Source: Apostichopus japonicus
Lineage: Eukaryota; Echinodermata; Holothuroidea; Aspidochirotida; Stichopodidae
Length of the DNA stretch: 64,000 bases
Assembly (NCBI RefSeq): GCF_037975245.1
Contig: NC_092568.1
Span: 24,597,501-24,661,500, forward strand
Direction of reading: 5' to 3'
Below are positions 29,350-63,350 of the stretch, in pieces. Every line of letters starts with the position of its first letter. Within the stretch, counting starts at the first letter, position 1. The notes below the pieces were generated by a model. The model did not search any database and was not told where the DNA came from. It saw nothing but the letters and a program-made list of their open reading frames with translations. Made by a program: the position numbers and the translations under genes.

Positions 29350-29644
29350 CAGGCGCGTAGCCAGGAATTTGCCAAGGGAGGGGCGAAACTGTAGATTCGG
29401 CATTGCAAACTATCTAAGCGTAGCGCCACCATGAGTTGGCGCGAAGCGTACAAGAAAATTTTGGCTGTAAATGCCTCCCAGATCGCCGGAAATGGCACTT
29501 CCCATGCCTTGTTAGTTGTATCTTAGCATTTTCTCTTTTGAAAATACTAGCGATATCATAAAAACCTTAAAAATTTTTGTAAAAAATATGCTCAAGGGGG
29601 GGGGCGGCTGCCCCCTTCGCCCCCCCCCCTTGGCTACGCGCCTG
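29350..29644 (+). mobile_element. hAT-type MITE, 295 bp, nested
   Basis: Termini CAGGCGCGTAGCCA and TGGCTACGCGCCTG have perfect 8-bp TSDs GGTTGCAG (29342-29349 and 29645-29652). It carries the shared module at 29409-29511, 59 bp from its left end. The same family as 39969-40280. Confidence 0.9.
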
Positions 29645-30410
29645 GGTTGCAGGCCATTGATGAAATAAAAAGTCATAACTGCTGGCTCACTATCTACGTG
29701 GAGCGCCACCATAAGTTGGCGCGAAGTGCACAAGAATTTTTTGGCAAATATTGCCTCCCAGATTGCAGTAAATGGCACTGCCCAGGCCTTGAAAAGCTGC
29801 ATTTAACCAGGGGCGTATGCAGGATTTTCTAACCCGGGGGCGCGTATTACTATCTAAGCGGAGCGCCACCATAGGTTAGCGCGCAGCGTACAAGCAAATT
29901 TCTGGTTTTGGTACCCCCAGATCACCGGAAATGGCACTTCTCGGGCTTGAAACTGACCAACCATATGTACACTTTTGCCTGAGAACCAAGTTTTTTCCAA
30001 ATACTTTTTTTCTCATCTATAACCTTTTGAAGATTGTCACCAGTCACACATCATGTTCGACTTCATCACATATCCTGTGGATCATTGCTTTTGTAGGTGC
30101 ATCGCGGCCCACAATATCCGTCAGCCCCACTGTTCAGAATTTGAAAATTCACAATTCTCGTGAATAAATTCACTTCAAAACATACCCATAATGTTGCACA
30201 AAATATCATCTATGGACAACCGATATAGAAAAACCTCCTTCAAACCCTAACAGACGGGTCAAAATTGCACGAGTATGATGAAGTATGATGAAGAATGTTG
30301 GTTAGGGAATTTTCGAAAATTCAGACGGCTACTAAAAAATTTCGTTGAAGGAAATAAAAATACACCAGATATTTCCGAAACCGAACACTACACACATCGA
30401 CAGTTTTGAG

Positions 30411-30968
30411 CATGGGCGCAGATCAGTCTTGGATAATGGTGGGGACGCGTGTCTGTTCTATGACACTATCTAAGCGGAGCGCAACCATGGGTTCGCGCGT
30501 AGCGTACGATTTTTTTGGGCAAATATACCTCCCAGATCGCCGGAAATAACACTTCCCAGACCTAATGATGCTCCTAAACCTCCTTAAGTTTTAGATCTCA
30601 TGGCTTAGAAATTTAGTTTGGAGAAATACATGGGCGTCTGCAGAAGGAAAATCAGGGGACAAATAATCCAAGTAGACTTTTGTATATACGATGGGTCTGG
30701 GGTCCTCTCCCAGAAAACAAATATAGACTGCCGCAAATGCGATTTCCGTCCTATATTTAACAACTGTGGATAAAATACAATAAAATGAGAACTGCTGCAT
30801 GTCATTTGCACAATGCTGGATCAAACTGCGCCAAAGTTCAATACAGGGGAACTTGAAATGCAGCTATTGGTCAAGACAAATTGGTGGGGACACGGTATAT
30901 CATGTCCCCGCTACTGAAAAAGTTGGTGGGGACGCGTCCCGCAGTCCTCACCAGGATCTGCGCCCATG
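30411..30968 (+). mobile_element. hAT-type MITE, 558 bp, nested
   Basis: Termini CATGGGCGCAGATC and GATCTGCGCCCATG are bordered by GTTTTGAG (30403-30410) and GTTTGGAG (30969-30976), a TSD with one substitution. The shared module lies at 30464-30563, 53 bp from the left end. The other subterminal part repeats GGTGGGGACGCG. Confidence 0.85.
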
Positions 30969-32055
30969 GTTTGGAGGCTGTTTATCGTGGAACGCCATTT
31001 TCATGCTCACTGATATGATGTGATATCTGCTGTTTGCTTTACTAATTCGAATAATTTTGTCACTGTTCCTCTTTCTCTTCCCGTTTTCTTGCCGTATTTT
31101 CTACTCCATCCTTTTCTCCTTTTCTCTTTCTTCTTTTTCTTTTCCTTCCTTCACCTCGTTGAAGTTGGCAAGTGTATACAGATCCAAAGCTATTCAACAG
31201 CAACAAAACGTTATTTTGTGTATGTCTGTTGTGGGGTGAAGTTAGCGCTATGAGCTACAAGTTCCAATGCGCAAGGTGGGGGAAAGGGGCTAGAAATAAT
31301 GTATGGGTCAATTCTAACTCGGTTTTCGGTCGTTAATTGTTGATGTATAGCCTACCGGTAAAAGGTTGAAATGACTTTAACAATTTCAAATATAATAATT
31401 TGATTTATTATGCCATTTGGAGCACATAACATAGGCTATAACAGAACATTACTGGCAAAAACTAGGGGGGGTTGATTGTGTGGGCCAACCCCCCCTCTTC
31501 AAAAAGTGGGGGGGTTAAAACCCCCCCAACCCCCCCTGTTTCTCCGCCAGTGATCAGGGGTCATTCTTTGTAATATTTTCAAATATCTCAATCTCCTCAA
31601 GATTTTGATGGATCATATTCAAAGTTGAACTGATGATTGTTGGATTGTGTATGAATAAGATGATGCCTAATAATTTTTGGTCAAAAGTTAATTAATTACA
31701 ATTAATCCCCATTGTTTAAAAAAATCTGGACCTTCACCTTTTGCCAAAGCTCCTTTAATTTGTCTCCCAGTCTCTGCAGTGTTTGTTTACATTTGTGGTT
31801 AAGCTCTGCAGAGGCTGTTAGTGGAATTAAAGCAGGACTGGGAGTTGTTATTAACTGTTGAACTGTAAGCATGAGAGCCCTATAGCCAATCAGCACTTGC
31901 CGATTCTTAGAAGTCTTTGAGCCTGAGGTATGTAGGCAGCCAGCCAAAATTTTGGCAAGGAGTGCTTCAGTATGGAACGCGAAAAGGGCAACCATATTTC
32001 GTTGTATAAACTAAGTTTGTTGCAGTCTAAACTAAAGTTGTTGCTGCTGTTTTGT

Positions 32056-32305
32056 ATGTATGTATGTATGTATATGTGATCTTCCCGCAAGCAGGAACTC
32101 GCGAAAGAAGCCATGGAGGCTTGTAGACTCGCAAGCTGACCGAAGCCAATCTCTCGGCACACATCCATTTAACGTCCATGTCGGGAAGTTGTTATTGAAC
32201 AACACCCTTGCCAGACGACACACATTGCTGTCGGCGGGGAATCGAACCGGGGATCTCATGACTGGGAGACGCCGGCGTTAACCACTAGGCTATACACTCC
32301 GCCTT
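32056..32305 (-). mobile_element. tRNA-derived SINE (family S1)
   Basis: On the minus strand the head has box A TAGCCTAGTGGTTAACGCC and box B CCCGGTTCGATTCCCC. The 3' domain matches 26000-26080, and the 3' tail is a TGTA microsatellite (32055-32075). It is better preserved than the 26-kb copy. Confidence 0.85.
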
Positions 32306-32828
32306 TTTACCACGTTTACCACGTTTACCACGTTTTACCACGTTGTTGCTCAACTCACGTTGTTATTTTAACTTCCGTTGTCTAAACATACGTCGTTGTC
32401 TAAACTTACGTTGTTGCTATCGGCGCTGTTCAAAATTGCTCAACCGCGTAATGTATACCAGAATGCAAAATGCATTGAGGTTTCGATGACTTCAGTACAC
32501 TAGAAAGGTGTTAGTATAAGCAGAACTAGCTGTTACTATATAAATGGCCCGAACCACCATTTTGATACATTAAATAAACACAGGTCAGTCTACTGTACGT
32601 GGCTATACACACCTGCACCAAAAACAATAGGGGTCTTGGAGGTCCAAGTCCATTTGGAGTCACCAAACGCAAACTTGTGGAAACCTTGTTCTATAAGCTA
32701 CCGTATCTCCCACAGCCAGCCTATCAGATAACTTGTGCGTTACAACTCATACGAATAGGAGGCTGCATGGTAAACAACTTTTAAAATGTTATCATGTTAT
32801 ACCTATAGGCTATGCATATACGCTGTGA

Positions 32829-33080
32829 ATTAATGTCGGAAATCAAGTACAACGTCGAGTGTCTAGACAAAGTACCAGCATAAAAATACTGCACTTTTAA
32901 ACTGATTTCATTGAGCCCCTCCAACAATGTGTAGAGATAATCTGGGAATGTCGGTAATCAAGTAAAACGAGTGTCGAGACAAAATGCCAGCATAAAATAC
33001 TGTACTTAAAATTGAATTATTGAACCATTACATGATGTCTGGATATGTTGTGAATGTCGGCAATCAAGTAAAACGAATGA
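32829..33080 (+). repeat. Tandem repeat, unit about 107-115 bp, 2.3 copies
   Basis: Units begin AATGTCGGNAATCAAGTA at about 32833, 32947 and 33054 and share GACAAA.T.CCAGCATAAAA. Confidence 0.75.
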
Positions 33081-33390
33081 CAGTAATATTACTAAAGAAA
33101 AATGTTTTCGTCCCGATAGAACACCAATTGCGTTTATTATATGACCTATACTTTTACTAGTGTTTATAGTTGAGAAGATGCGATCTTATCACTGCCTGTA
33201 CTTTGTGAATGCTCTGCACAATATATATATATATGGCGGATGCCATACAGTGCCCTAGCTTCGCTGTTTTACAAGGGCGGCCGTCCGACCTTAATTTCGC
33301 CTGCCCTGCGACTCTTTTCTCCTATAATATTATATTTTAATAATTTTTTTGAAAAGAAAGAATGATGTTCGTTCACAATGTGTTCACAAC

Positions 33391-33700
33391 GGAACTTTAG
33401 ATAGCAACGAAAGTGTAGACATCAACGTGAGTTTAGACATCAACCGTAAGTTAACTTAGCAACGAAAGTTTTAGACATCAACGTGAGTTTAGACATCAAC
33501 CGTAAGGTTTATAAATCAACGTGAGTTTAGACATTAAGGCGCGTTTAGTCGTCAACGTGACTTTAGACATCAACGTAGTTTAGACATCAACGAACAACAG
33601 CAACATGGTAAACTAGCAGCAACAGCTTCAGTTTAGACAGCAACAAACTTAGTTTAGGCAACGAAACAAACTTAGTTTAGGCAACGAAATACGGTTTCCC
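33391..33700 (+). repeat. Minisatellite, unit about 17-20 bp (GTTTAGACATCAACGTGA)
   Basis: It forms the right arm of the foldback-like element. Inverted relatives lie at 32005-32045 and 32310-32430 in the left arm. Confidence 0.75.
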
Positions 33701-34286
33701 TTTTCGCGTTCCATACTTCAGGTCTGCTCAGGTAGAGGGGAGAAAGTTTAATAGGGTAGGTCAGTGGTATTGTTTGAGAGAGTGGGTAAAACAGGATTTA
33801 AAGGGGGGAAAATAGGAATTATAGCCAGTGGTGTGGCCAGTATTCTGCTAACGGAGGGGGGGGGGGTATCCCTCATGGGCCCAAAATTGGGTGGAATATG
33901 AAAAATGGCCTGAAATTTGGTGGGCCATAAAGTTTTGTTGGCCCTACATATTTAAGCTCGAAAAGGTATGAGCTTCTGCACCATTGGTGCTCTAGTTGAC
34001 GTTTCCATTTTTCCTCTCTCACTAATGTATCTATATATATATATACTGGTCTAGCATAACGCGTGCAGTGTGTGTATGGACGCCTTGAACAATTGTTCAA
34101 TTGTGCAATGGAACCAACTGTGGCTGGTCTTGAACTCGACCAAGTCGTCGGGGAACATGACGCATTTCGGGAAGGGGCGACCGCCCCCCCCCCCCGAGCA
34201 AATTTTCTCTATGATATCGTACTGCTTTGAAATGCTGCAAGCTCTGTGGATATAAATACATACACACATATACACATATATAAATT

Positions 34287-34287
34287 G

Positions 34288-34322
<35 letters not shown>

Positions 34323-34356
34323 GTATGTATGTATATATATATATATATATATATAT
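34287..34356. repeat. (TA)n with TGTA interruptions
   Basis: It borders the block starting TGAGGACCCTCCC. The same TA-then-block junction occurs at 39178 and 58592. Confidence 0.9.
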
Positions 34357-36594
34357 GAGGACCCTCCCTCTCATTTATCTTGAAATCCTGAACCCTAACA
34401 AATTGGCCACGTCTTCTTTCATCGTTCTGTATGCGGCTATTTTCCGCGGTACTGTAAGTCAACGGGAATGTGGTTACCCATGCAACCATATTCGTGAATT
34501 TTCATTGGCGTAATTTGATATTTATTCAGGTTAACCAGTAAAAATTATCACCAAACTGGCACTTTTGAATGAAACAAATGGGAAAAAGGCACATCTTATT
34601 ATTTTGAAAAGATATATACTTGAGTTTTTCAAACTAGTGGGAGGAGAAAGGGGTGGGGCACCTGTCAACTCTGCCAACTCCCATGAAGTTTGTAAAATTC
34701 TTGACCAAACACAAACAGCTATAGGCCTACATGCATGATTTCAGCTTGTTCGGTGACGGATGAATTGGTTTGGTGGCGCTCCGCTTAGATAGTAACAAGA
34801 CGCCCTCCCAGGAAATGGTCAAGGCCCCCCAGCACCACCCCCCCACTTAAGAAAATCCTGGCTACGCCACTGCTTGGCGCGGTATCTCAAGCTAACTGTT
34901 ATTAGTTCCCGTATTAGCTGGGAAATGTCCGTCACTTGTGTTAAACTAAAATATCCTTTCAGTATAATGTTACATACTCAAAATCCAGGGTTTTACATGG
35001 TTCACCAAAAATACTTAATTTAGGCACAAGTATATGCACACAGAGATGCGAGTATTGGTATGACTTATCAGTTGTTTCTCGACTAAAAGTAAAACATAAA
35101 ACAAAGCGTATACATGATAGGATCAGTTTGTCGTATAGAACAAGAGTATATATAAGCAAAAGATGAACGAAGACAATGCCTATAATCTAAATCTCTTTAT
35201 CTTTCTTTTCTGAAGAGTGTCAAAGGGTATACAGAGCAATTTACAACATTCCCTCCACCATTTACTCCACCATTCTCTCCACCATTTCTATGTTCTGTGG
35301 TAGTCATGTTCACGTTCAAGTTTCGATCTTCGGTTCTTGCCCAAATCTGTCCAAGTATAGAGAACACAGAGAAGTTATTATTGGTATTGAACGATGACAA
35401 TAACGGTATAAGTACCTACACCAACTTAGTAGACACTTAATCACGTGTTGCATATATTTGAATACCCCTATCAACATAATGGACTAACGTACAAAGCTTC
35501 GTGCACATTGGATTTTCATAGGGGATTACAAGGGCGTAGGAACCGAGGGGCTGGGGGGCGCCAGAGTGAAGGTTACTATATACTGTTTATTTGCATTCAT
35601 GTTAATCCGTCTTAAGGTATAAACGTTTATTTTTTATTCACTTTAGTTGGATGAGTGCATTGCGCATTTGTGACGTAATGTAGGGACTGCGTGATAGAGT
35701 ATGTCGGTACGGAATTCCGGGTTGTACGGTATCGCCCCAGCATCTCCCCTCTCTGTGACAAACGGCAGCAGAGGAGAGACCTACCAAACGTGAGACGTTT
35801 GCAACCCCCCCCCCCCCCCGCCACTGGTTTTGGTAGGGGCGTGAACCTTCCTTGTCGAAGGGCCAGAAACCCACGAAAGTTTATTTTCTATTTAAATAAG
35901 GTGACTTCTATGAAACGTTGCCATAGTCTTGTGATAGGGTGGTGGGGGGGGGTGGGAGGGGTAGAATCACAATAATCCAATAAAAATCAGAATTTTTCCA
36001 ACACGGTGGATTCATAAGGAAGTGTGCCGTACCGCAAGTTAGTAGAATTGTTGGTGAGCAAACTGACCATAATTATGTTATGCAGACAATTTTAAAGTTA
36101 GTTTGTAATATTTTCAATTTTATTATGGGTTGTACAAGGAGATAGACACAAGATTTCGATTAATTGTAAGTTCGAATTTCGTCAAATCTTTTTATAATGT
36201 TAGAAATATTACAAATAGCCTAATATTAATGACTCAGAAATCTTGTCAAAAGTGCGATATCTTTATATCTGTTACAAGATACAAAATATCCAACTGTCAT
36301 GTTTTGGACCACTGATTTTTCCAACTGTTGAAGATTCAAACCAATTAATTGGGGGGGGGGGGGTGAGACATCCCAGCATCCCACTGTAGGTAAGTATTAG
36401 TATTATTAGTAAAAGTATTATTGACATTTTTAAGCGAAACGAAAATGAATATAAGTAGAACGTTCTACTTGAACATGCTTCTAATCTTGTAACTTTAGGA
36501 TACGTACTGACTGACATAGAAAATACAAATAGTCGAAATGAGGTGATTAATACATTTTGTAAAGCAAGTACTAAAGTAGGCCTATTTCACTGAC

Positions 36595-36664
36595 CTGTAT
36601 ACGCATTAGCGCCCAACGAAGTACTGAGCAAGACAACAAGCATCAACAGGCAAGAAACCTTCAT
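36595..36664 (-). pseudogene. Orphan signal-peptide exon of a Kunitz-type gene (U1)
   Basis: The exon encodes 23 residues (MKVSCLLMLVVLLSTSLGAN then AYT), a typical signal peptide with a hydrophobic core and small residues before the likely cleavage site. It ends in a gtcagt donor in phase 1, exactly like the U2 exon at 44036-44105. The matching Kunitz exon is absent from U1 because the sequence jumps from 35567 to block C. The exon could only splice to the small downstream exon-like segment ending near 35196-35362, so I treat it as non-functional. The open frame is undamaged. Confidence 0.6.
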
Positions 36665-36769
36665 CTTAAAACGGCGTAGTAGTTACGGGAAGTGGGTGAG
36701 ACGGCTGGTATATCAGACGGGAGGTCGAAGCAGAGCGCAAGAGTGAGATTATTGCACTTCACCGTCATC

Positions 36770-36776
36770 ATTTATA
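36770..36776 (-). promoter_or_regulatory. TATA-like box upstream of the U1 signal exon
   Basis: TATAAAT on the minus strand, about 106 bp before the ATG. The position and sequence are conserved in U2 (44211-44217). Confidence 0.4.
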
Positions 36777-37234
36777 TTTATCGTCAAACAGCAGCGGAAT
36801 ACATAAGCCAATCACTGTCACGTTCTGGTCCCAACTGTATAGGTTACGTAAATTCCACTGACCAATCATAGAATAAACGAAATGGTTGGTAACTGCTGAT
36901 TGGCTGAGGCAAGTAGCATTGTTTTCGAAAAGGTCAACCACTTCCCTGAATAATATGTTCAACACCGAAGAACCGTAAAACGTGTCTAAAATTTGACTCC
37001 AATTAGCAATTTGAACTGTTGGCCACGTTGTCAAAGTTAGATTCATTTTCATGCCTGTATTTCGTTCCATATCAATATTGTACGTAAATATCTACCGGCA
37101 AGTCTAACAATTGATGTATACACATAGGCGTACGAGGCGGGGGGGGGGGCAGGGGGGTAACCTGCCCCCCAAAATTTCCAGAGGACAAGAAATTCGGGCA
37201 AAAGTCCTGAAAAATTCGGGCAGCCTAAGAGGAG

Positions 37235-37237
<3 letters not shown>

Positions 37238-37317
<80 letters not shown>
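37238..37317. repeat. (TA)n microsatellite, about 80 bp
   Basis: Uninterrupted TA run inside block C of U1. The paralogous site in U2 has only about 20 bp of non-repetitive AT. Confidence 0.95.
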
Positions 37318-37320
<3 letters not shown>

Positions 37321-38205
37321 GTAGCTTGCCCGAATCTTTTTCAAATTTTTGCCCGACAATTCCGTGGAGAGTGTTTGTGACATTAATATTATATTAATAT
37401 TAATATAGGCATAATGATTTTCTTTATTTAGCATCATGATGCCCGAATATTTACGTGTAACACCACCGTAAGCGCAGCTCATCTGGGCTACCACGCTTTT
37501 TGCAATATCGACCAAAATTATTAACAGAGAACGCCGCTCACAATTGTGGTGACATGCATGCATGGAGATTAGCAGTCTCTGAAGTGAATGACTAGAAGTC
37601 TAAAATGATCTTAAAAAATATACTGTCCTATTTTTCCCCTTCAAAGTGATGTTACCATTTTTCTTCTTCTAATTTACCAAATTTTGGGGAAGTGTAAATT
37701 TCTAAAACTTGAGATTAAAAAATAAAGAATGTTTAGATGAAACTTGCAAGGAGTTCATAAGTGCCATTTTCGGCAATCTGAGAAGCATTTCTTGCCAAAA
37801 AAATTCTAGTACGCTACGCGCCAACGGATGGTGGCGCTCCGCTTAGATAGTAATTCGCGCCCCCGGGTTAGAAAATCCTGGATACGCCCCTGGTTACTAC
37901 CAGCAGTGAGCAATTCCCAACCCAACCCCCGGGCCTCGGTCCATTGTCAAACACTATCCGGGAGTTTTGGGGGCTTATATATGAAAAGCTCGAATCTTTT
38001 TAAAAGTCGGGAGGAGGTTATAAGGGCCAGGGCACACGACGACCTAGTGGTGCCAGTTTAACCGTCACCCTGACCCAATTGTAAATATGCTCTCGGAGTT
38101 GCCCGAGGGACCAGTGTATATGTTGAGGCCCGCGGGAAACTAAACTCGAAAAAAGACGGGCGTATCCGTCGCTGTATCCGTCTCCTAAAATTAACGGCAT
38201 ATGTC

Positions 38206-38512
38206 CAGGGGTATATTCGTCCGGGGGTTATTTATCCGGGGGGGGGGGGTAATTGTCTAGGGGGGTAATTGTCTAGGGGGTATTCGTCCGAGGGGGTAGT
38301 TGTCCGGGTGGGTACTTGTCCGGGGGGTTTTTGTCCTCGGGGGTAATTGTCCGGGGGGTTTCTGTCCGGGTGGTAGTTGTCCTGGGGGGTAGTTGTCCGG
38401 GATGGTATTTGTCCCGGGGGTATCTGTCCGGGTGGTAATCGTCAGGGGGGTTATTGTCTGGGGGGTAATCGTCCGGGGGGTATTTGTCTGGGGGGTATTT
38501 GTCCGGTCACGG
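38206..38512 (+). repeat. G-rich minisatellite, unit about 17-19 bp (GGGGGTAATTGTCCGG)
   Basis: About sixteen degenerate copies. On the minus strand they read as a PDNYPPGQLPPGQ-like frame, which I regard as repeat-derived and not a gene. Confidence 0.9.
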
Positions 38513-38591
38513 GTGTATAAGGCCACAGTTACTTCCGGTGACGATGGCACCACCAGGTCATATGTTGGGCTTACCGGGGGGGGGGGGGGAT

Positions 38592-38897
38592 TTCAAATCT
38601 AGATATAATAACCACACTAAGTCTTTCAGAAATAGTAAATACGAGAAGGAGTCTGAGCTGTCTAAACACATATGGGGATTGAAGAGACAAAAGGTAGATT
38701 ACTCGGTTAGGTGGAACATAATTAGGTAATCCGACACTTATCAGCGGGAATCGGGTAACTGCAACCTTTGTATAGAAGAAAAACTGGAAATCCTACGCAC
38801 AAGAGGTGACACGATCAATAGGAGATCCGAGCTTATTTCTTTGTGTCGCCATGGTAACCCCAAGCTATCGAACCGTAAACGGTTGAAAAAGAAGTAG
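38592..38897 (+). pseudogene. Penelope-like retroelement, C-terminal fragment
   Basis: The frame reads RYNNHTKSFRNSKYEKESEL, then W.LK, CNLCIEEKLEIL, NRRSELISLCRHGNPK. This matches the conserved tail of Penelope-like elements downstream of the GIY-YIG domain (H..SF, LS..W.LK, C.LC..EK, N.RSE..S.CRH). One in-frame TAA (38727-38729) interrupts it, and the reverse transcriptase is absent, so it is a 5'-truncated dead copy. The element's 3' tail probably continues to about 39050, followed by the TA run. The family call rests on remembered motif pattern. Confidence 0.75.
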
Positions 38898-39051
38898 TCT
38901 GTTTTGACCATCCAATGGCCTGAAGATCGTCGCTCTATGCGTGCGTGAAACCCAGGGTAGCAATATGGTGTAATTTGTATATCTTGTGTTATATGTGATA
39001 GCCTATTATTGCTCTACTACGGTATTGAGCACTTACTACTGATTACGTGTG

Positions 39052-39092
39052 ATATATATATATATATATGTGTGTGTATATATATATATGTG

Positions 39093-39176
<84 letters not shown>
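39052..39176. repeat. (TA)n microsatellite, about 125 bp
   Basis: TA run with TGTG/TGTA interruptions at its left side, immediately before the first block of U2. Confidence 0.95.
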
Positions 39177-39179
<3 letters not shown>

Positions 39180-39968
39180 GAGGATCCTCCCTCTCATTTA
39201 TCTTGAAATACTGAACCCTAACAAATTGGCCACGTCTTCTTTCATCGTTCTGTATACGGCTATTTTCCGCGGTACTGTAAGTCAACGGCAATGTGGTTAC
39301 CCTTGCAACCATATTCGTGAATTTTCATTGGCGTAATTTGATATTTATTCAGGTTCACCAGTAAAAATTATCACCAAACTGGCACTTTTGAATGAAACAA
39401 ATGGGAAAAGGGCACATCTTATTATTTTGAAAAGAAATATACTTGAGTTCTTTAAACTTGTGGGAGGAGAAAGGGGTGGGGTACCTACCTGTCAACTCTG
39501 CTGCCAACTCCCATGAATTATGTAAAATTCTTGACCAAACACAAACAGCTATAGGCCTACATGCATGATTTCAGCTTGTTCGGTGGCGGATGAATTGGTT
39601 TAGGCTATAAATATTACTTTCCAATGTAGTTGGTACTTTGAAAGTAACGTCAAACTGGGTTAATAAGTTACATGCAAAGTGGTGACAGACGTTCTCGTGA
39701 AGACGGAAGGTTCTCGATCTATTCAGTACATTATAAACAACTGTGTATAGGTCTTGGCGCCAGTGGCGTAGCCAAGGGGGCATGGGGGCGACAGCCCCAT
39801 GAAAGCTTGTCGCCCCCAGTCGCACTCCCTCTGGGATTTTGGGTGTCGAAAACAAAATAACATGTTGTGCGAAAATATATCATGACGTCTACAGTAGTCG
39901 CACTGTACTGAAAACACATGTTTATTGTTAACGACCGTCGAATGATATACTTTCTGCTCTAATAAATA

Positions 39969-40280
39969 CAGGCGCGTAGCCAAGGAGGGGGGGGGGCGAA
40001 GGGAGAGACCACTCCTCCCCCTTGAGCATATTTTTTTGGTACGTTTTTATGATATCGCTAGTAATTTCAAAATAGAAAATGCTTAGATGCAACTTGCAAG
40101 GCCTGGGAAGTGCCATTTCCAGCGATCTGGGAGGCATTTTCGGCCAAAATGTTCTTGTACGCTTCGCGCCAACGCATGGTGGTGCTACGCTTAGATAGTT
40201 TTCAATGCCGAATCTACGGCTCTGATAATTTGCCTACAGGCTCACCCCTCCCTTGGCAAATTCCTCGCTCGACGCGCCTG
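39969..40280 (-). mobile_element. hAT-type MITE, 312 bp, nested
   Basis: Termini CAGGCGCGTAGCC and the degenerate CGACGCGCCTG have perfect 8-bp TSDs AATAAATA (39961-39968 and 40281-40288). The shared module is on the minus strand at about 40090-40200. Same family as 29350-29644. Confidence 0.88.
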
Positions 40281-40394
40281 AATAAATACTAATATAAACA
40301 GCCAATCAGGATCATGTAACCAGTTCTCATCAACTGATCAAACAAGCTAGTGGGCTATACTATACCCTAGTAGAAAGGTGGTTTCCAGGTACTG

Positions 40395-40620
40395 GAATGC
40401 CAAAGAAGATGTTAAAAGGTAAAAATGCTGACATCATACAGGTTTCTCACATCATTGATTGCGTCATTGCCTCGATACTCTGTTACATTTTCAATCGGGT
40501 TTTCACTTCTGGGACGTACCCTGATGCTCTTAAAACCGCTAAAAAACCAAATTTTCAAGAAAGGAGACAATACTATCGCATACCGGCCAATCAGTCTATC
40601 ACCCAAATAATATTTCAGAC
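40395..40620 (+). pseudogene. Non-LTR (LINE) reverse transcriptase fragment
   Basis: One frame reads LCYIFNRVFTSGTYPDALKTAK and a shifted frame continues IFKKGDNTIAYRPISLSPK. Together they match the conserved N-terminal part of non-LTR reverse transcriptases (G.YP..LK.A...PIFKKGD...YRPISL). A frameshift near 40545 and the short length show a dead fragment, carried inside the hAT element. Confidence 0.75.
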
Positions 40621-41489
40621 GCAATCTTTGATGTCAGTTTGACATATAATTTGATCATTTCAGTATGCTACTTGCCTGAAAGCCCAGTCAATCTTTCCTT
40701 ATTTTCCACGCGCAATTTGCAGATTTGTCGAAAAATGTCAATGCCGGTGTCAAACTCGCAAAAGATATGTCATGATATTTCAAATTAGCTTACCAGACTG
40801 TTTTTCTTTTCTATTTCACTAAACTATTTGATGACCATATCAAGATATGGGATCTCAAAATAAAGGATGTTGAGAAAACTTAAGAGCAGCTTACAAGGCC
40901 TGGGAAGTGTCATTTCCAACGATCTAGGAGGCCCTTTTATCTAAAAGATCTCGGTACGCTGCGCGCCAACCCATGGTGGCGCTCCGCTTAGATAGTAACA
41001 AGACGCCCTCCCAGGAAATGGTCAAGGCCCCCCAGCGCCCCCCCCCCACTTAAAAAATCCTGGCTACGCCACTGCTTGGCGCGGTATCTCAAGCTAACTG
41101 TTATTAGTTCCCGTATTAGCTGGGAAATGTCCGTCACTTGTGTTAAACTAAAATATCCTTTCAGTGATGTTACATATACTCAAATCCAGGGTTTTACATG
41201 GTTCACCAAAAATACTTAATTTAGGCACAAGTATATGCACACAGAGCTGCAAGTATTGGTATGACTTATCAGTTGTTTCTCGACTAAAAGTAAAACATAA
41301 AACAAAGCGTATATACATGATAGGATCAGTGTTTCGTATAGAACAAGAATATATATAAGCAAAAGATACAACGAAGACAATGCCTAATCTAAATCTCTTT
41401 ATATTTCTTTTCTGAAGAGTGTCAGAGAGTATACAGAGCAATTGACAACATTCCCTCCACCATTTACTCCACCATTTTCTCCACCATTT

Positions 41490-41548
41490 CTATGTTCTGG
41501 GGTAATCATGTTCACGTTCAAGTTTCGATCTTCGGTTCTTGCCCAAAT
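41490..41548 (-). other. Possible alternative last exon (charged tail)
   Basis: Behind an acceptor CTTGGACAG, the phase-1 frame gives a 19-residue charged tail (DLGKNRRSKLEREHDY..) then TAG. It is conserved in U1 (about 35304-35362) and U3 (about 59544-59602). Only conserved splice context supports it. Confidence 0.25.
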
Positions 41549-41807
41549 CTGTCCAAGTATAGAGAACACAGAGAACTAATTATTGGTATTGAACGATGAC
41601 AATAACGGTTAGTACTTATACACCAACTTAGTAGACACTTAATCACGTGTTGCATATTTTAATACCCCTATCAACATAATGGACTAACCTACAAAGCTTC
41701 GGGCACATGGAATTTTCATAGGGGGTCAACCATTTCTGTATCAAACACAAAATATTTTAACATTAAAAGACATGTTAAGTTTTGTTAACTACATAATAGT
41801 ATCAACG

Positions 41808-41813
41808 TTTATT
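41808..41813 (-). promoter_or_regulatory. Candidate polyadenylation signal AATAAA
   Basis: It lies about 100 nt past the last stop of the exon-3 frame of the U2 Kunitz gene. The same sequence is kept in U3 and U4. Confidence 0.4.
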
Positions 41814-41910
41814 AATTTAATAGTACCATACATTTTAATGTTCATTTGATGTTATTTTACCTGATGAATGTTTCTTCTAACATTGACAATAAAATACAGA
41901 CCCTACGATT

Positions 41911-42182
41911 TTAGTAATGGCAACCTTTCTGAGAAATTACGGTCCAGCCGTCGCTGGCCAAATGATTTGCACTAAGTCGGCTTTGAGTACAGCGGTTCTT
42001 GATGTTGCTGTCATAGTACTTAACGACTTTGCGATCCGCGTTATATAGTCTTTGCCGACTTTGCAATTCGCGGTTTCTCTTACAAGTCTGCAAAGTCGGT
42101 AAGAGTGACTCCATAGTTTTTCCCTTTCGGGGACCTCCCCCACCCTCCAAAAAAGTTCTCTTGATGCTTTTCGGCACTTTTC
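41911..42182 (-). other. Exon 3 of the U2 Kunitz gene (probably 3' UTR)
   Basis: An acceptor (CTATGTCAG) at 42183 joins in phase 1 to the gtaagt donor of the Kunitz exon. The frame stays open for 90 codons to 41911 (TAA). In U2 the Kunitz exon already ends with TGA, so this exon should be untranslated. In U4 the preceding codons are CCA and translation would enter the exon. A homopolymer G-run (in transcript sense) near 42130-42140 differs in length between U2, U3 and U4 and changes the frame, arguing against a conserved protein tail. Confidence 0.5.
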
Positions 42183-42272
42183 CTGACATAGGAGAACACT
42201 CGGGCGGATTGATACAGGATCTATATGAAGTATGCCACCTTTGGAGTTGGCACCTAATGTATTATACTTACC

Positions 42273-44105
42273 TCACATAACACATGCTTCGATGCATTCG
42301 TTTTCTGATAAGAATTTGTTTCGGTTCCCCATACATCCTCCGTATACAAATACTGTACAGGAGCCATCTTGATATGTCCATTGTGGGAAGTAACCGAAGC
42401 ACGGACCATGGTCAACAGGCAGAGAGCAAACTTCCCTGGGAACTAAATTTGAGACGGGATCATTTATTTAAAAACCAATCAATCGAAATCGATGGCAATT
42501 TAACATACACTATTTGAGATACGTGGACGAATACAATGCACGTATAAGATGCCATAAGTAATGAAATATACATCAGTTTCTGTCAAATGACACGGCGCCG
42601 TACTCTCATTGGATTAAAAAACGGCACATGTTCGAAACATTGACATACGACGAGTTTACTTGCATCATTCAGCTTCCAGCAATTCAGATTGGTAGAAATC
42701 GGAATATGTACAATAAAATTGGCATCTGCATGTCAGTTTATCGTGGAAGACATTGCCACACGTCAATCCCTGGGTGAAAGAAATTAACGGATGTCGAATT
42801 ATATTGACATAAGTCAGTTTCTCATGTTCACAGTCAGTATCGAAACGTCTACATATTAACTCGTGATGTTACAGAGGTACTACCGCTGAGGCTAAGGTTA
42901 GGGTAGCTGTTCATGGAAGCCCGTCATTAAAACTGATTTCAAACAACCCTGGACTGTCTGGCCCCACATGGGCGGCTTGGCTGTTGTTTCGACCACGAAA
43001 CTTAAAAGAGTGAAGGTTATATTACATACTGCTTATTTGCATTCATGTTAATCCGTCTTAAGGTATAAACGTTTATTTTTCATTCACTTTAGTTGGATGA
43101 GTGCATTGCGCATTTGTGACGTAATGTAGGGACTGCGTGATAGAGTATGTTGGTACGGAATTCCGGGTTGTACGGTATCGCCCCACCATCTCCCCTCTCT
43201 GTGACAAACGGCAGCAGAGGAGAGACCGACCAAACGTGAGACGTTTGCACCCCCCACCCCCCCCCCGCCACTGGTTTTGGTAGGGGCGTGAACCTTCCTT
43301 GTCCAAGGACCAGAAACCCACGAAAGTTTATTTTCTATTTAAATAAGGTGACTTCTATGAAACGTTGCCATAGTCTTGTGATAGTGTGGTGGGGGGAAGG
43401 CGGGTGGGAGGGGTAGAATTACAATATTCCAATAAAAATCCTAATTTTCCAACACGGTGGATTCATAAGGAAGTGTGCCGTACCGCAAGTTAGTAGAATT
43501 GTTGGTGAGCAAACTGACCATAATTATGTTATGCAGACAATTTTAAAGTTAGTTTGTAATATTTTCAATTTTATTATGGGTTGTACAAGGAGATAGACAC
43601 AAGATTTCGGTTAATTGTAAGTTCGAATTTCGTCAAATCTTTTTATAATGTTAGAAATATTAAAAATAGCCTATTATTATTGACTCAGAAATCAGAATTT
43701 TCTTGTCAAGAGTGCGATATTTTTAGATCTGTTGCATGATACAAAATATCTAACTGTTATGTTTTGGACCACTGATTTTCCAACTGTTGAAGATTCAAGC
43801 CAATTAATTGGGGGGGGGGGAGTGAGACATCCCAGCATCCCACTGTAGGTACGTCCAAAAGTATTATTGATATTTTTAAGCGAAACGGAAATGAATGTAT
43901 GTAGAACTTTCTAACATGCTTCTAATCTTGTAACTTTAGGATACGTACTGACTGACATAGAAAATACAAATAGTTGAAATGAGGTGATTAATACATTTTG
44001 TAAAGCAAGTACTAAAGTAAGCCTATTTCACTGACCTGTATACGCATTAGCGCCCAACAAAGCATTGAGCAAGACAACAAGCATCAACAGGCCAGAAACC
44101 TTCAT
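42273..44105 (-). CDS. Secreted Kunitz-type serine protease inhibitor (79 aa, 2 coding exons)
   Basis: Exon 1 (44105-44036) encodes a 23-residue signal peptide, MKVSGLLMLVVLLNALLGAN plus AYT, ending in phase 1 at a gtcagt donor. Exon 2 (42442-42272) follows an acceptor AAATTTAG and encodes one Kunitz/BPTI domain with TGA at 42275-42273, two bases before a gtaagt donor. All six cysteines are present in the order C-x8-C-x13-C-x7-C-x12-C-x3-C, with the hallmark GPC, FVYGGC and GN.N.F elements. The usual second spacing is x15, so the hairpin turn is two residues short. The P1 position after the second Cys is Phe, predicting chymotrypsin-like targets. The product should be exported and block proteases in body fluid or secretions. 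A conserved TATA-like box lies about 106 bp upstream of the ATG. Confidence 0.85.
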
Positions 44106-44950
44106 CTTAAAACGGCGTAGTAGTTACGGAAAGTGGCTGAGACGGCTGGTATATGAGGCGGGAGGTCGAAGTAGAGCACAAGAGTGAGATTATTGCACTT
44201 GACCGTCATCATTTATATTTATCGTCAAACAGCAGCGGAATACATAAGCCAATCACTGTCACGTTCTGGTCCCAACTGTATAGGTTACGTAAATTCCACT
44301 GACCAATCATAGAATAAACGAAATGGTTGGTAACTGCTGATTGGCTGAGGCAAGTAGTGTTGTTTTCGAACAGGTCAACCACTCCCCTGAATAATATGTT
44401 CAACACCGAAGAACCGTAAAACGTGTCTAAAATTTGACTCCAATTAGCAATTTGAACTGTTGGCCACGTTGTCAAAGTTAGATCATTTTGTTTGTGCCTG
44501 TATTTCGTTCCATATCAATATTGCACGTAAATATCTATCGGCAAGTCTAACAACACATAGGCGTATGAAGCGGCGGGGGGGGGGGCAGGAAGGGGGACAG
44601 ACTGCCTCCCCCCAAATTTCCAGAGGACAAGAAATTCGGGCAAAAGTTCTGAAAAATTCGGGCAGCCTTAGAGGAGAAAAATATACATATTTATGTAAAT
44701 ATGCAGTAGCTTGCCCGAATCTTTTTCAAATTTTTGCCCGACAATTCCGTGGAGAGTGTTTGTGACATTAATATTAATATAGGCATAATGAATTTCTTTA
44801 TTTAGCATCATGATGCCCGCATATTTACGTGTAACACCACCGTAAGCGCAGATCATCTGGGCTACCACGCTTTTTGCACTATCGCCTAAAATTATTAACA
44901 GAGAACGCCGCTCACAATCGTGGTGACATGCATGCATGGAGATTAGCAGT
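43009..44950. repeat. Duplicated block C, copy in U2
   Basis: Partner of 35568-37560. It includes the signal-peptide exon and its promoter region. Confidence 0.85.
44211..44217 (-). promoter_or_regulatory. TATA-like box of the U2 Kunitz gene
   Basis: TATAAAT on the minus strand, about 106 bp before the ATG at 44105 and conserved in U1. Confidence 0.4.
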
Positions 44951-45299
44951 CTCTGAAGTGAATGACTACAAGTCTAAAACGATCTTAAAAAATATACTGT
45001 CCTATTTTTCCCCTTCAAAGTGATGTTACTATTTTTAATTCTTCTAATTTACCAATTTTTTGGGGAAGTGTAAATTTCTAAAACTTGAGATTAAAAAATA
45101 AAGAATGTTTAGATGAAACTTGCAAGGAGTTCAGAAGCGCCATTTCCGGCAATCTGAGAAGCATTTCTTGCCAAAAAATTTCTAGTACGCTATGCGCCAA
45201 CCGATGGTGGCGCTCCGCTTAGATAGTGTCACGGGAACTTTCGGGCACAAAAGTTTCTGCCCCCCCCCCCAAACTGAAATGGTCCCATACGCCTATGTG
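44554..45299 (-). mobile_element. MITE with CACATAGGCGTA ends
   Basis: The left end CACATAGGCGTATGA and right end TCCCATACGCCTATGTG are inverted. The shared module lies at about 45117-45230, 69 bp from the right end. I could not read a clean TSD. The U1 relative (from about 37122) has the same body but a different right end after the module (TAATTCGCGCC..ACGCCCCTG, 37851-37892). Confidence 0.65.
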
Positions 45300-48862: not shown

Positions 48863-57297
<8,435 letters not shown>

Positions 57298-57643
57298 CTC
57301 TGGTCATGAAAATGAGAACTAATAGAGAACCTTCTGATTGCTATCTGCTTGGTTCTTTGTTTCTGGGAAGAACAGAAAATTAATAGACCTTTAACATTAA
57401 CACGTACAGCTTAAAATAGTTAATATTTTGATTTGATGCCAGGGATAGTAAGGGGGGTGGGCAGTGGGAAAGGGGTTTGTTCCCATAATTTGAAGCATGT
57501 GGCTCTGCAAATACCAGCTTAAAAGGACTCATTATAATACGTTTAGTAAATCCAAAGGGTAGTTGAAAAGTGGTGTTATTGTAACACAGTGTTTTGGACT
57601 AGTAAGGTAATAATATCAGTATTATTGTTTTATTATTTATTAT
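57298..57643. other. 5' flank of the synthetase gene
   Basis: No other gene seen. It should contain the promoter. Unit U3 of the Kunitz locus starts just beyond. Confidence 0.4.
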
Positions 57644-57814
57644 TGTCTTGAACTCGACCGAGTCGTCGGGGAACATGACGCATTTCGGGAAGGGGCGACC
57701 GCCCCCCCCCCCGAGCAAATTTTCTCTATGATATCGTACTGCTTTGAAATGCTGCAAGCTCTGTGAATATAAATATATACATACACACATATACACATAT
57801 ATAAATTGTATATA

Positions 57815-58134
<320 letters not shown>

Positions 58135-58289
58135 TTTTCATTTGCCTTTGTCGTTTACCTCCATTGCATTAACATAAAGTCTGTTCAAAGTATCTCTTTC
58201 GAGATCCGGCTTTAGGAATCACAAATGATTTTCGAGTTGAATAGCATCATGTTTGATCTCTAGAGTAGGGCAAAATATGTCACCAAAAA

Positions 58290-58498
58290 CAGAACTAGTA
58301 TTGTTCGATATAGGTGACAAACGCCTACAGTGGAATTACGATCTTCCTTACCGGTTTCGAACCTCTGGACATACATTCAGCGTCCATAGCCTAGTGGTTA
58401 GGGTGTCCGCGTACAGAGCGGGAGGCCCGTGGTTCGAATCCCGGTGGAGGCTGAAAGTTTTTTCACTGTTCTTGATTTTCCAACTCATTACGATTTTC

Positions 58499-58502
<4 letters not shown>
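58290..58502 (+). mobile_element. tRNA-derived SINE (family S3), copy 2
   Basis: Almost identical to copy 1 over 210 bp, and its 3' end runs directly into a TA tail of about 90 bp. The 155 bp between the copies is unrelated. Confidence 0.85.

Positions 58503-58592
<90 letters not shown>
58503..58592. repeat. (TA)n microsatellite
   Basis: Pure TA run, either SINE tail or host microsatellite, followed by the TGAGGATCCTCCC block. Confidence 0.95.
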
Positions 58593-58595
<3 letters not shown>

Positions 58596-59772
58596 GATCC
58601 TCCCTCTCATTTATCTTGAAATCCTGAACCCTAACAAATTGGCCACGTCTTCTTTCATCGTTCTGTATGCGGCTATTTTCCGCGGTACTGTAAGTCAACG
58701 GGAATGTGGTTACCCATGCAACCATATTCGTGAATTTTCATTGGCGTAATTTGATATTTATTCAGGTTAACCAGTAAAAATTATCACCAAACTGGCACTT
58801 TTGAATGAAACAAATGGGAAAAAGGCACATCTTATTATTTTGAAAAGATATATACTTGAGTTTTTCAAACTAGTGGGAGGAGAAAGGGGTGGGGTACCTA
58901 CCTGTCAACTCTGCTGCCAACTCCCATGAATTTTGTAAAATTCTTGACCAAACACAAACAGCTATAGGCCTACATGCATGATTTCAGCTTGTTCGGTGAC
59001 GGATGAATTGGTTTGGTGGAGCTCCGCTTAGATAGTAACAAGACGCCCTCCCAGAAAATGGTCAAGGCCCCCCAGCGCCCCCCCCCCCACTTAAAACAAT
59101 CCTGGCTACGCCACTGCTTGGCGCGGTATCTCAAGCTAACTGTTATTAGTTCCCGTATTAGCTGGGAAATGTCCGTCACTTGTGTTAAACTAAAATATCC
59201 TTTCAGTATAATGTTACATACTCAATTCCAGGGTTTTACATGGTTCACCAAAAAAACTTAATTTAGGCACAAGTATATGCACACAGAGATGCGAGTATTG
59301 GTATGACTTATCAGTTGTTTCTCGACTAAAAGTAAAACATAAAACAAAGCGTATACATGATAGGATCAGTTTGTCGTATAGAACAAGAGTATATATAAGC
59401 AAAAGATACAACGAAGACAATGCCATTAATCTAAATCTCTTTATCTTTCTTTTCTGAAGAGTGTCAAAGGGTATACAGAGCAATTTACAACATTCCCTCC
59501 ACCATTTACTCCACCATTCTCTCCACCATTTCTATGTTCTGTGGTAATCATGTTCACGTTCAAGTTTCGATCTTCGGTTCTTGCCCAAATCTGTCCAAGT
59601 ATAGAGAACACAGAGAAGTTATTATTGGTATTGAACGATGACAATAACGGTATAAGTACCTACACCAACTTAGTAGACACTTAATCACGTGTTGCATATA
59701 TTTGAATACCCCTATCAACATAATGGACTAACGTACAAAGCTTCGTGCACATTGGATTTTCATAGGGGATTA

Positions 59773-60139
59773 CAAGGGCGTAGGAACCGAGGGGCTGGGG
59801 GGCGCCAGCCCCCAAGTGAAAAATGTGGAGGGGCGGAAGTATCATTCCTCCCCCCCCCCCGGTTCGCAAGTCAGAAAACCCCTTTTTCATTCCAAATGAG
59901 AAAAAAAATCTCATTTGGAGCACCAAATTGCATCTAAGGCCAGGTGAAAATACAAAATTAAGTTTACAAAATGGAGTGGGTGTTGAAGTGCGCTATATTG
60001 CACCAAATTGCATCTGAGGCCACCTGGAAATGCAAAAAATTCCAAAGGGGGAGGGGGACACCCCCTCCCCTTAGACCCCTCCCCCAGGCTGGCCATCAGT
60101 CTTCAGCCCCCCACTCAAAAGTACCTTCCTACGCCACTG
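59773..60139. mobile_element. hAT-type MITE, 367 bp
   Basis: Termini CAAGGGCGTAGGAA and TTCCTACGCCACTG have perfect 8-bp TSDs GGGGATTA (59765-59772 and 60140-60147). U4 has the empty site at about 63425-63432. Internal direct repeats CACCAAATTGCATCT occur twice. The first 40 bp of the same insertion survive at the U1 deletion junction (35531-35567). Confidence 0.92.
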
Positions 60140-60692
60140 GGGGATTAACAATTTCTGTGTCAAACACAACATATTTTAACATGCATGTAAGGACATGTTA
60201 ACTACATAATATTATCAACGTTTATTAATTTAATAGTATCGAGTACATTTAAATGTTCCTTTGATAATATTATTTCACCTGATGAATGTTTCTTCTAAAA
60301 TTGACAATAAAATACAGACCCTACGATTTTAGTAATGGCAACCTTTCTGAGAAATTACGGTCTAGCCACGGTCCCTGGCCAAATGATTTGCACTAAGTCG
60401 GCTTTGAGTACAGCGGTTCTTGATGTTGCTGTCATAGTACTTAACGACTTTGCCGATCCGCGTTATAGTCTTTGCCGACTTTGCAATTCGCGGTTTCTCT
60501 TATAAGTCTGCAAAGTCGGTAAGAGTGACTCCATAGGTTTCCCTTTCGGGGACCCCCCCCCACCCTCAAAAAAAAGTTCTCTTGATGCTTTTCGGCACTT
60601 TTCCTGACATAGGAGAACACTCGGGCGGATTGATACAGGATCTTTATGAAGTATGCCACCTTTGGAGATGGCACCTAATGTGTTATACTTAC

Positions 60693-60853
60693 CTCACATA
60701 ACACATGCTTTGGTGCATTCGTCTTCTGATGAGAATTTGTTTCCGTTCCCCATACATCCTCCGTATATAAATTCTATACAGGAGCCATCTTCATATGCCC
60801 ATTGTGGGAAGTAACCTAAGCACGGACCTTGGTCAACAGGCAGAGAGCAAACT
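60693..60853 (-). pseudogene. Kunitz-domain exon of U3, upstream part lost
   Basis: The frame keeps all six cysteines with the same shortened x13 spacing and FIYGGC/GNGNKF motifs. Its P1 residue is Leu instead of Phe, and it also ends in TGA (60694-60696) before a gtaagt donor. At 60853, just upstream of the first Cys, homology switches to block A sequence, removing the normal acceptor and the link to a signal-peptide exon. It is a probable broken gene, unless a new acceptor (GCCAG, adjacent on the minus strand) is used. Confidence 0.65.
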
Positions 60854-61233
60854 GGCACTTCTGAATGAAACAAATGGGAAAAGGGCTCATCTTATTATTT
60901 TGAAAAGAAATATACTTGAGTTCTTTAAACTAGTGGGAGGAGAAAGGGGTGGGGTACCTACCTGTCAACTCTGCTGCCAACTCCCATGAATTTTGTAAAA
61001 TTCTTGACCAAACACAAACAGCTATAGGCCTACATGCATGATTTCAGCTTGTTCGGTGACGGATGAATTGATTTAGGCTATAAATATTACTTTCCAATGT
61101 AGTTGGTACTTTGAAAGTAACGTCAAACTGGGTTAATAAGTTACATGCAAAGTGGTGACAGACGTTCGCGTGAAGACGGAAGGTTCTCGATCTATTCAGT
61201 ACATTATAAACAACCGTGTATAGGTCTTGGCAT

Positions 61234-63350
61234 CACTGGCGGATCCAGAGCCTTTGTTTGGGAGCGGCCAAATTGGCATTAAAGTGATATGGGGGAGGGG
61301 TCTAAGGGGAGGGGGTGCCCCCTCCCCTCAGGCGCGGCGGAACGGAAAAATTATTGGGGGGCTAATGTGTGGAGACTATCTCAGCGGAGCGCCACCATCG
61401 GTTGGCGCGGAGCGTACAAGAAAATTTTGGGTTTTTTCAAACCCCCAGATGGCCGGAAACGGCACTTCCCGAGTGTTTTATGCTGCGAATACCTAGCCCT
61501 AAAATATGGGTCTCAAGTCTGCAATATCTTAGATTGAACGAGAAAGTCTGTAAAAACATTGTAATTTGTATTTTCGATGGTGTTTTAAGAGAGTAGCTAT
61601 TACTCGTAGTGTACTCGCAAAGACGTTTTGAGTGTAGTAAGGGCAGTGGCGGAGCTAGGGGTATTGGTCGGGGTGGGGGCAAGAATAGTCTGTAGGGCGC
61701 TTTCGACACTATCTAAGCGGAGCGCCACCACAGGTTGGCGCAGAGCGTACAGAAAATTTTTGAGTAAAGATACTCTATAGATTGCAGGAAATGACCCTTT
61801 CCGGGCCTTGCTAATTTGCAGATAAACTGAGAATAAATAGGTGTCGTCGCCATTTTGTCGGAAAATTACACCAACAAAATATGACAAATGTCAATAGGTA
61901 GATGAGAGCGCAATAAAATAGTCAATAATCGCGAATAAGTAAAAAGTAGTGAAAAGCTGAAAAGGGCGCCAGCAGTCCATTTGAGTCCGTCAGGGGGGGG
62001 GGCATCTGCCCCCCTGGCTGTATGGACGCTCCGCCACTGAGTAAGGGGATGTTGGAGAACTGGCTGAAATGAGGCAAGTCATTATCCTAAGACGAAGTTG
62101 TGTTGCGCTTACCGGTACTCACACTCACTGCTTCCACTTTTCACGGGGCGTGAAGACGCGGTTGGGGTGACAATGTGGTCTATAGCCAGGGGACGGGCCG
62201 AGGGTCCCCCAGCATTTACGAAAATTTTTACACCTATATAGTATACGTGTGCATCAGACAGATCGACAAGTATGCATTGAAAAATGGGCAGATGCACGTT
62301 TCGGAGCCTTGGTAAATATTGGGGGGGGGGCTTATCATGCATTTGCCCCCTCAACTTTTTCATTGGGGGGCTGAGCCCCCCCCCCAAGCCCCCCCCCCCC
62401 GGTTCCGCCGCCACTGCCTCCCCTTTGGAAAATTTTCTATTGCTGAATGCCCTCAGATGCAATTTGGTGCGACAACAGTGTACAATGGTGATGTAAATTT
62501 ACTTCTAAAAAAATGTTTCCCAGGTGTAATTTTCTAAAATATTTATGAAACAAAGTTGGGATCATCTTTCTCAAGAAATTTTATTTCTCATAGGTTATAA
62601 ATTTCTTACAACCAGCCTGTAACTGCAAAATGGTGTTAAACTGTAAATCCTTATGCTCATACATTTACATAGCTCCCAACTCTTGAGAAGGCAAATGCTG
62701 GTCCATGACACGAATCGCCGTCCTGGGGGAGGGGTATAAGGGGAGGGGGTGACCCCCTCCACTTTTGATTTTTTTTGGAATCCTGGTAATGCCTACATGT
62801 AAAATGGTGGCACTTAGAAAGGCTTTTGTCACCCACAATTTTCTGAGAAATACGCATTTTTTTGTGTGTAACATCAATAAATTGAATAGTAGGTGATAAT
62901 TCATTCTTTCCCGTGGCATGAAAATGTTCGCTGCTCGCCCCAATGAAAAGAAATATAGGCTAATTTGAGGTTCAAATGATGCTGTAAAGGAGGTTGTATA
63001 CTCTATTATGCTAAATGCTAAAGAAATGATGGTTGCTAAGTCAAAATTGGATGCAATTTTTTTTTATGTATACTTGACAATTACAATGCGGTTTTTTCGG
63101 ACGCTTGTGCGGGTCAGCGGGTTTGGGTGTTAGAATGCGGGTCTAATTCCCGCGAATTGCGGGTCAGTTGGGAGCTCTGCATTTAATTTTAAATCAGAAA
63201 ACGAAAAGGTTTAGACTAGTCTACCACTGCTATTCCTCTCGCTTTTTTTAATTTCCAATCATATGATTTAGCGGATGTTCGGAAACACTTTTTGGCTCAC
63301 CTTTGGGGGGGCCATGGCCCCCCTTGCCCCCCCCCTTGGATCCGCCAGTG
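61234..63350. mobile_element. hAT-type element, 2117 bp
   Basis: Termini CACTGGCGGATCCA and TGGATCCGCCAGTG have perfect 8-bp TSDs CTTGGCAT (61226-61233 and 63351-63358). It contains a shared module at about 61375-61475 and a younger MITE (61644-62039). A lone terminus CCGCCGCCACTG ends at about 62417. No intact transposase frame. Confidence 0.88.
61644..62039 (+). mobile_element. hAT-type MITE, 396 bp, nested
   Basis: Termini CAGTGGCGGAGCTAG and CGCTCCGCCACTG have perfect 8-bp TSDs AGTAAGGG (61636-61643 and 62040-62047). The shared module is at 61708-61810, 64 bp from the left end. Confidence 0.92.

Follow-up and report, generated by a model that had tools for sequence, protein, structure and literature searches.

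A one-sided subterminal module in Apostichopus japonicus hAT-type MITEs with different and occasionally exchanged ends

Miniature inverted-repeat transposable elements (MITEs) are usually classed by their ends. What, then, is to be made of a 64,000-nucleotide stretch of the genome of the holothurian Apostichopus japonicus (NC_092568.1, positions 24,597,501 to 24,661,500, forward strand; the whole stretch is hereafter the window), in which MITEs with different ends carry the same internal module of about 100 bp? In these elements it is the ends that can be exchanged, and what stays constant is a site in the interior, on one side only. The module is conserved and keeps its position and orientation in elements with hAT-type ends and target-site duplications (TSDs), and two end swaps have occurred at its edge, one of which spread as a multi-copy family. 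We think that the module is probably a cis-acting subterminal site, present on one side only, of a large group of hAT-type MITEs whose ends can be swapped at its outer edge. The locus thus offers a concrete, testable case of the birth of MITE families and of possible hAT requirements beyond the terminal inverted repeat (TIR).

The first-pass annotation of the window proposed ten full copies of the module, and all ten exist, each within a few bases of where it was placed. They start at 29409, 29689, 29849, 30465, 61375 and 61708 on the forward strand and at 37851, 40199, 40996 and 45227 on the reverse strand. Two further places that had been called fragments are indeed present, as 23-bp remnants at 34793 and 59036 on the reverse strand. 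A search of the window with a sequence-only profile built from 19 copies returned the ten full copies and the two remnants and nothing more at E ≤ 1, and the 17-bp head of the module gave 12 matches (≤3 mismatches) in the window and 0 in 100 dinucleotide shuffles. The annotation counted at least ten MITEs with the module; the copies are real, but not all of them are independent, as some are products of segmental duplication and one element is a composite. Their ends do differ, with eight 5' end types in the window and about 14, by inspection, when fetched loci are included. The module lies 41–81 bp from the terminus in the window, where 40–75 bp had been given.

The module starts sharply, at ACTATCT, and its two blocks are separated by a variable spacer. 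Block 1 (46 bp; ACTATCTAAGCGGAGCGCCACCATnnGTTGGCGCGnAGCGTACAAG) contains a GCGCCA/TGGCGC quasi-palindrome with AGCGnAGCG-like repeats around it, and block 2 is CAGATnGCCGGAAAtGGCaCTT. The inverted repeat, already recognized in the core by the first-pass annotation, is near-invariant, with 97.4% of cells pairing across 19 sequences. Mean pairwise identity among 17 representatives (136 pairs, some of the same family) was 0.87 over module positions 1–46 and 0.67 over positions 47–103. Beside the module it was 0.46 in the 45 bp upstream and 0.49 and 0.44 downstream, which is the random level (0.51 for shuffled 60-mers). The sample behind these and the following counts is uneven: module queries of families A and F supplied the loci, to which H and transposase loci were added, and families A, F, H and the K-ended chimera described below, which served as queries, are over-represented. 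First-look searches of the genome gave 1,454, 1,741, 2,086 and 1,240 candidates, of which 40 were scored in each search; these numbers are counts of candidates, not confirmed copy numbers. Two fetched loci that repeat window places (L003 and L009) were dropped from the head, outer-segment and identity counts.

A reading of the palindrome as RNA structure was rejected. The inverted repeat showed 0 compensatory changes across the 19 sequences, and the folds of six copies, with z-scores of −0.4 to −1.1, were no better than those of shuffles; neither result speaks for such a structure, and the module also had no Rfam match at the gathering score. As for a coding reading, an open frame comes after CCACCATG in the module of family A, and in family F (40996) the same frame, followed by eye, hits a TAG inside the module.

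The carriers and remnants in the window are the following.
29350 to 29644, forward strand: element A, a hAT-type MITE of 295 bp; ends CAGGCGCGTAGCC; TSD ggttgcag; module at 29409–29511, 59 bp from the 5' end.
29310 to 31552, forward strand: element B, a composite; ends CAGTGGCGGAGA; TSD atcagggg; its own module at 29689–29790; it holds A, a C piece and D.
29808 to 29951, forward strand: a C-type 5' end (CAGGGGCGTATGCAGG) with a module at 29849–29948, within B; the 3' end of C was not found.
30411 to 30968, forward strand: element D, 558 bp; ends CATGGGCGCAGATC; TSD gttttgag/gtttggag (1 mismatch); module at 30465–30563.
34771 to 34872, reverse strand: an F-type 5' end with module bases 1–23 only (34771–34793), in a segmental duplication; an apparent deletion product.
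37123 to 37892, reverse strand: element C2, a chimera of a C-type 5' end (41 bp) and an I-type module (37754–37851), body and 3' end; no TSD.
39761 to 41074, reverse strand: element F; ends CAGTGGCGTAGCC; TSD gcgccaag; module at 40895–40996; it holds element E.
39969 to 40280, reverse strand: element E, A-like, 312 bp; TIR with 2 mismatches; TSD tatttatt; module at 40098–40199.
44556 to 45297, reverse strand: element I; ends CATAGGCGTA; no intact TSD; module at 45130–45227.
59014 to 59116, reverse strand: an F-type 5' end with module bases 1–23 only (59014–59036); a paralogue of the remnant at 34771–34872.
61329 to 62416, forward strand: element G; ends CAGGCGCGGCGGAACG and CAGTGGCGGCGGAACC; TSD cctcccct; module at 61375–61476; it holds H.
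61644 to 62039, forward strand: element H, 396 bp; ends CAGTGGCGGAGC; TSD agtaaggg; module at 61708–61809.

Among 109 usable module heads (120 were found), 92 had a hAT-type terminus 25–110 bp upstream, compared with 274 of 5,000 random 85-mers (5.5%), and only 4 had one downstream; the terminus was on the same side of the module throughout the sampled copies. On inspection, the 17 misses comprised four B copies displaced by a nested A, the rest having mutated or decayed ends.

Short TIRs that start with CA and finish with TG are typical of hAT elements. The assignment of the carriers to hAT-type MITEs is true of most copies, which have ends of the CA..GGCG type and 8-bp TSDs wherever both ends survive intact. 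Perfect TSDs flank A, B, E, F, G, H, J, N and the K-ended chimera; D and the K-type element of locus L015 have one mismatch, those of C2 and I are not intact, and C lacks an identified 3' end. Wherever a pair was found, the TIRs start CA, finish TG and match with 0–2 mismatches over 11–12 bp. Under strict rules a TIR/TSD pair was found for 25 of 104 module matches in fetched loci, a few of which repeat window places; the 104 include L003 and L009. Six of nine further family A loci had such a pair, with TSDs AACCACGA, ACCCTCTT and ACTTAAAA at independent sites; TCATCATC lies in a TCA repeat and proves little, and GGTTGCAG was found twice inside the B composite. Coding capacity was not apparent: tblastn of 39 open frames from the transposase-side loci gave no match at 1e-4 in the window or in loci L001–L038 except in L025, where the match is a neighbouring hAT.

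The carriers are heavily nested, 29310–31552 holding A, D and the C piece, and 61234–63350 holding G, which holds H. The 5' end of the B composite recurs at three further places with differing 5' flanks (the 3' ends lie outside those loci), which suggests that composites move as units. The outer element at 61234–63350 is itself hAT-type, with CACTGGCGGATCC ends and TSD cttggcat around G and H, and the profile search found no module of its own in it. A separate 367-bp element at 59773–60139 has hAT-type ends (CAAGGGCGTAGG and CAGTGGCGTAGG) and TSD ggggatta and is without the module.

How did one module come to lie behind so many different ends? One account is plain common descent from a single hAT ancestor, the module being constrained while termini and bodies diverged gradually, without swapping. 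Most end types form single clades on the module tree, as such descent would have it, and weak downstream similarity persists among some families (for example, 0.63 over the first 60 bp between E and I2). Two lineages contradict it. The exchange of ends at the module, which the first-pass annotation had raised, is documented at least twice, in C2 and in the K-ended chimera.

From module base 1 onwards C2 is I-like, with 93.7% identity over 558 bp of module and body and then 86% over 151 bp, yet its first 41 bp are the end of C, scoring 0.96 to C and 0.47, the random level, to I. A 1.7-kb paralogous pair (35563–37261 and 43007–44702; 92.7%) adjoins C2 and I, and this paralogy, together with that of the adjoining pair, runs past the other end of the element and stops at the module start. 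As C2 has no TSD and lies at a segmental-duplication boundary, it records recombination at the module and not transposition of a chimera.

The second case did transpose. An element in locus L071 has K-type tips at both ends and TSD attgccat. It follows C for 503 bp at 84%, beginning 3 bp before the module, yet its 5' end is unlike that of C (0.42) and its 3' end is K-type (72% over 87 bp to L015). When the K end plus module was used as a query, the best 40 of 1,240 candidates, which were those scored and include the element itself, matched at 93–100% over nearly the whole query. All 12 copies that were fetched begin at the same terminus and have 12 different flanks. The far end was checked in five copies: four show a K-type 3' end followed by a perfect 8-bp TSD, and in the fifth the flank is repeated after a diverged or truncated tip. 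The different flanks and the K-type tips with TSDs demonstrate that the K-ended chimera transposed repeatedly and became a multi-copy family. An A-like piece also lies inside the three copies that were compared (L071, L113 and L115). The 14-bp K-type tip recurs, with at most one base changed, in L015, whose element differs in outer segment, module and body. We note that in L071 (519–1731) the K-chimera MITE overlaps the start of a hAT transposase frame of 801 aa, apparently interrupting the gene. Common descent is thus contradicted for two lineages and may remain the main history of the others; as a full account of the module we regard it as rather unlikely.

Modules and ends were compared. 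C2 and I fall together on the module tree, as do the K chimera and C. Placing the end groups on this tree needed 10 changes (minimum 7; shuffled mean 9.7) for 15 representatives and 16-bp ends. Module and end distances across 14 families were uncorrelated (r = −0.004, p = 0.50), in a comparison whose power is low with 16-bp ends; it is weak because short ends can converge. At this low power, the comparison gives no sign of a congruence that would refute swapping. For clustering of outer segments, single linkage first merged most of them through G runs; G runs were then squeezed and the threshold was chosen by hand. Two apparent conflicts between end and module proved not to be swaps: E, which falls beside A, has an insertion in the outer segment, and L067 is a truncated copy.

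Alternatively, the module could be a passive recombination hot spot, in which the palindrome breaks and gene conversion homogenizes the sequence, with no role in transposition. Both swap junctions lie at the module edge, and several modules are broken inside block 1: at base 23 in the two window remnants (34793 and 59036), at base 12 in L067 (2180–2277), at about base 18 in L078 (1646–1729) and, in L080 (4568–4641), by loss of bases 27–55. The palindrome may therefore be fragile. Conversion, however, leaves unexplained why distance and orientation to one terminus are kept in about 14 end types and why conservation extends to two separate blocks with a variable spacer between them, and family-specific module variants persist. 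We consider this explanation unlikely. Independent entry of the module into many MITEs, as a small mobile element or an insertion target, is very improbable. The same 100 bp does occur in elements with unrelated flanks on either side, but the 109 usable heads include no clear solo copy: 92 of them have the terminus at the expected place, and on inspection the misses reflect decayed or mutated ends or displacement by nested A. In these copies the terminus is on one and the same side, and the edges of the module itself showed no target duplication.

Under the reading that we favour, mobilization probably needs the module, which would keep it in the same place and orientation. By analogy with the left end of Hermes, zinc-finger domains of a hAT transposase may load at the module on one ('left') end, making it a candidate one-sided transposase-loading site. 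The first-pass annotation had put forward a transposase-binding or replication-related site, and either role would be putative. Because the module is common to otherwise unrelated elements, recombination or template-switching repair could cross over at its outer edge and so fit a different terminus onto an existing module and body, although the repair mechanism is inferred; successful combinations of end and module would then spread by transposition. An extension that is possible but doubtful is that the module is a portable loading cassette, a left-end site for several hAT transposases of differing terminus specificity that moves between families by recombination at its edge. If so, new MITE families would arise when an existing cassette and its body are fitted with a new terminus.

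Several observations weigh against a swappable cis-acting site. The TIR comparison, with ends of 16 bp from 14 families, has low power. A separate module lineage goes with most end types and just two swaps are documented, so swaps are occasional, and one of the two, C2, lacks a TSD at the edge of a segmental duplication. The outer segment also changes by insertions and deletions within a family (A compared with E, and among K-chimera copies), and unlike outer segments alone are therefore no proof of a swap. A hAT of the L057 family, seen at both ends (5' at L080:4686, 3' at L025:1164; TSD CCAATACC), has a TIR, CAGTGGCGTRGCCAG, resembling that of the carriers and is without the module, which is thus apparently not needed by every related hAT. 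Finally, the autonomous hAT carrying the module that the first-pass annotation had suggested looking for was not found among 42 transposase-side loci (30 Dimer_Tnp_hAT loci and 12 further stretches), in which the 5' ends of several transposase elements, including those with 804-aa and 801-aa frames, were not reached.

hAT transposases are plentiful in this genome. The best 150 of 633 Dimer_Tnp_hAT candidates were scored, 56 of 60 DUF4371 places were over the cut-off, and an open frame for an 804-aa hAT transposase is present in four copies. The transposase-side loci hold nine module matches in seven loci, all MITE copies that could not be assigned to the ends of the transposase elements themselves. 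L071 holds two nested MITEs and L076 another, the same copy as a match at the edge of L060; partly decayed or broken copies resembling A or H are found twice in L080 and once in L078; and the others are the truncated copy in L067 and a weak match in L052 (E = 0.0026). When 121 listed module places were compared with the 150 transposase places, six pairs lay no more than 20 kb apart; in two of these the distance was at most 2 kb, and the orientation was opposite in both. A block-1-like motif at the 3' end of the hAT in L058 was not significant, as 13 of 200 shuffles score as high, and was not counted.

Part of the window owes its copies to segmental duplication. The 60 bp upstream of the F-type ends at 34872, 41074 and 59116 are identical, and these ends represent a single F insertion spread in this way; two of the three copies are missing all sequence after the first 23 module bases, as far as about 160 bp past the far end. 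Segmental duplications of 0.4–1.7 kb with 92–98% identity lie at 34268–35564, 39093–39601, 40974–41724, 58503–59808, 60140–60853 and 63348–64000. The window also has two Rfam tRNA matches 300 bp apart (58007–58079 and 58380–58452; 47.2 bits each) and tandem arrays at 17017–17387 (20/40-bp unit) and 38244–38506 (15/31-bp, G-rich unit).

How does the module relate to known systems? Searches for its sequence words in PMC text, and for this combination of ideas, returned no papers, which is not proof that it is unpublished. The closest likeness is to the CMITEs of Acropora corals, in which, in the parts of the account drawn on here, families with different TIRs share a 75-bp internal region more conserved than the TIRs, and one element bore the internal region of another family; a role in transposition was suggested (PMC2872659). 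A conserved interior with differing TIRs is common to both groups, and in the module carriers, likewise, block 1 is conserved across families (0.87) and the 45 bp outside the module show no more than random identity. However, CMITEs are about 100 bp long and piggyBac-like, with TTAA duplications and CC[C/T]T ends (PMC2872659), whereas the module carriers are hAT-type, mostly about 250–1,500 bp, with 8-bp duplications and CA..GGCG ends, and in about 14 end types their module lies away from the centre, close to one end. The carriers are therefore not members of the CMITE group and are a new variant of the same phenomenon in hAT-type elements.

The P-MITEs of Anopheles gambiae resemble the module carriers in their 8-bp target duplications and in a mixed-end element, one MITE having the TIRs of two subfamilies, and gap repair from ectopic templates was proposed for their interiors (PMC1562414). 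Swaps at the module edge would fit homology-driven recombination or template switching during gap repair, comparable to this ectopic repair. P-MITEs belong to the P superfamily, and the portions of that report used here describe no single subterminal module common to families (PMC1562414). In Hermes, zinc-finger (BED) domains bind three closely set sites at the left end, two of which form a palindrome, and none at the right end; activity depends in part on this asymmetry between the ends (PMC10368747). The Hermes left end is thus like the module in being one-sided and in having a quasi-palindrome. Hermes is, in contrast, a single characterized autonomous element with a short binding site, AAG(T/C), near the tip, and the sections of that study considered here describe no sharing of the site among families with different ends (PMC10368747).

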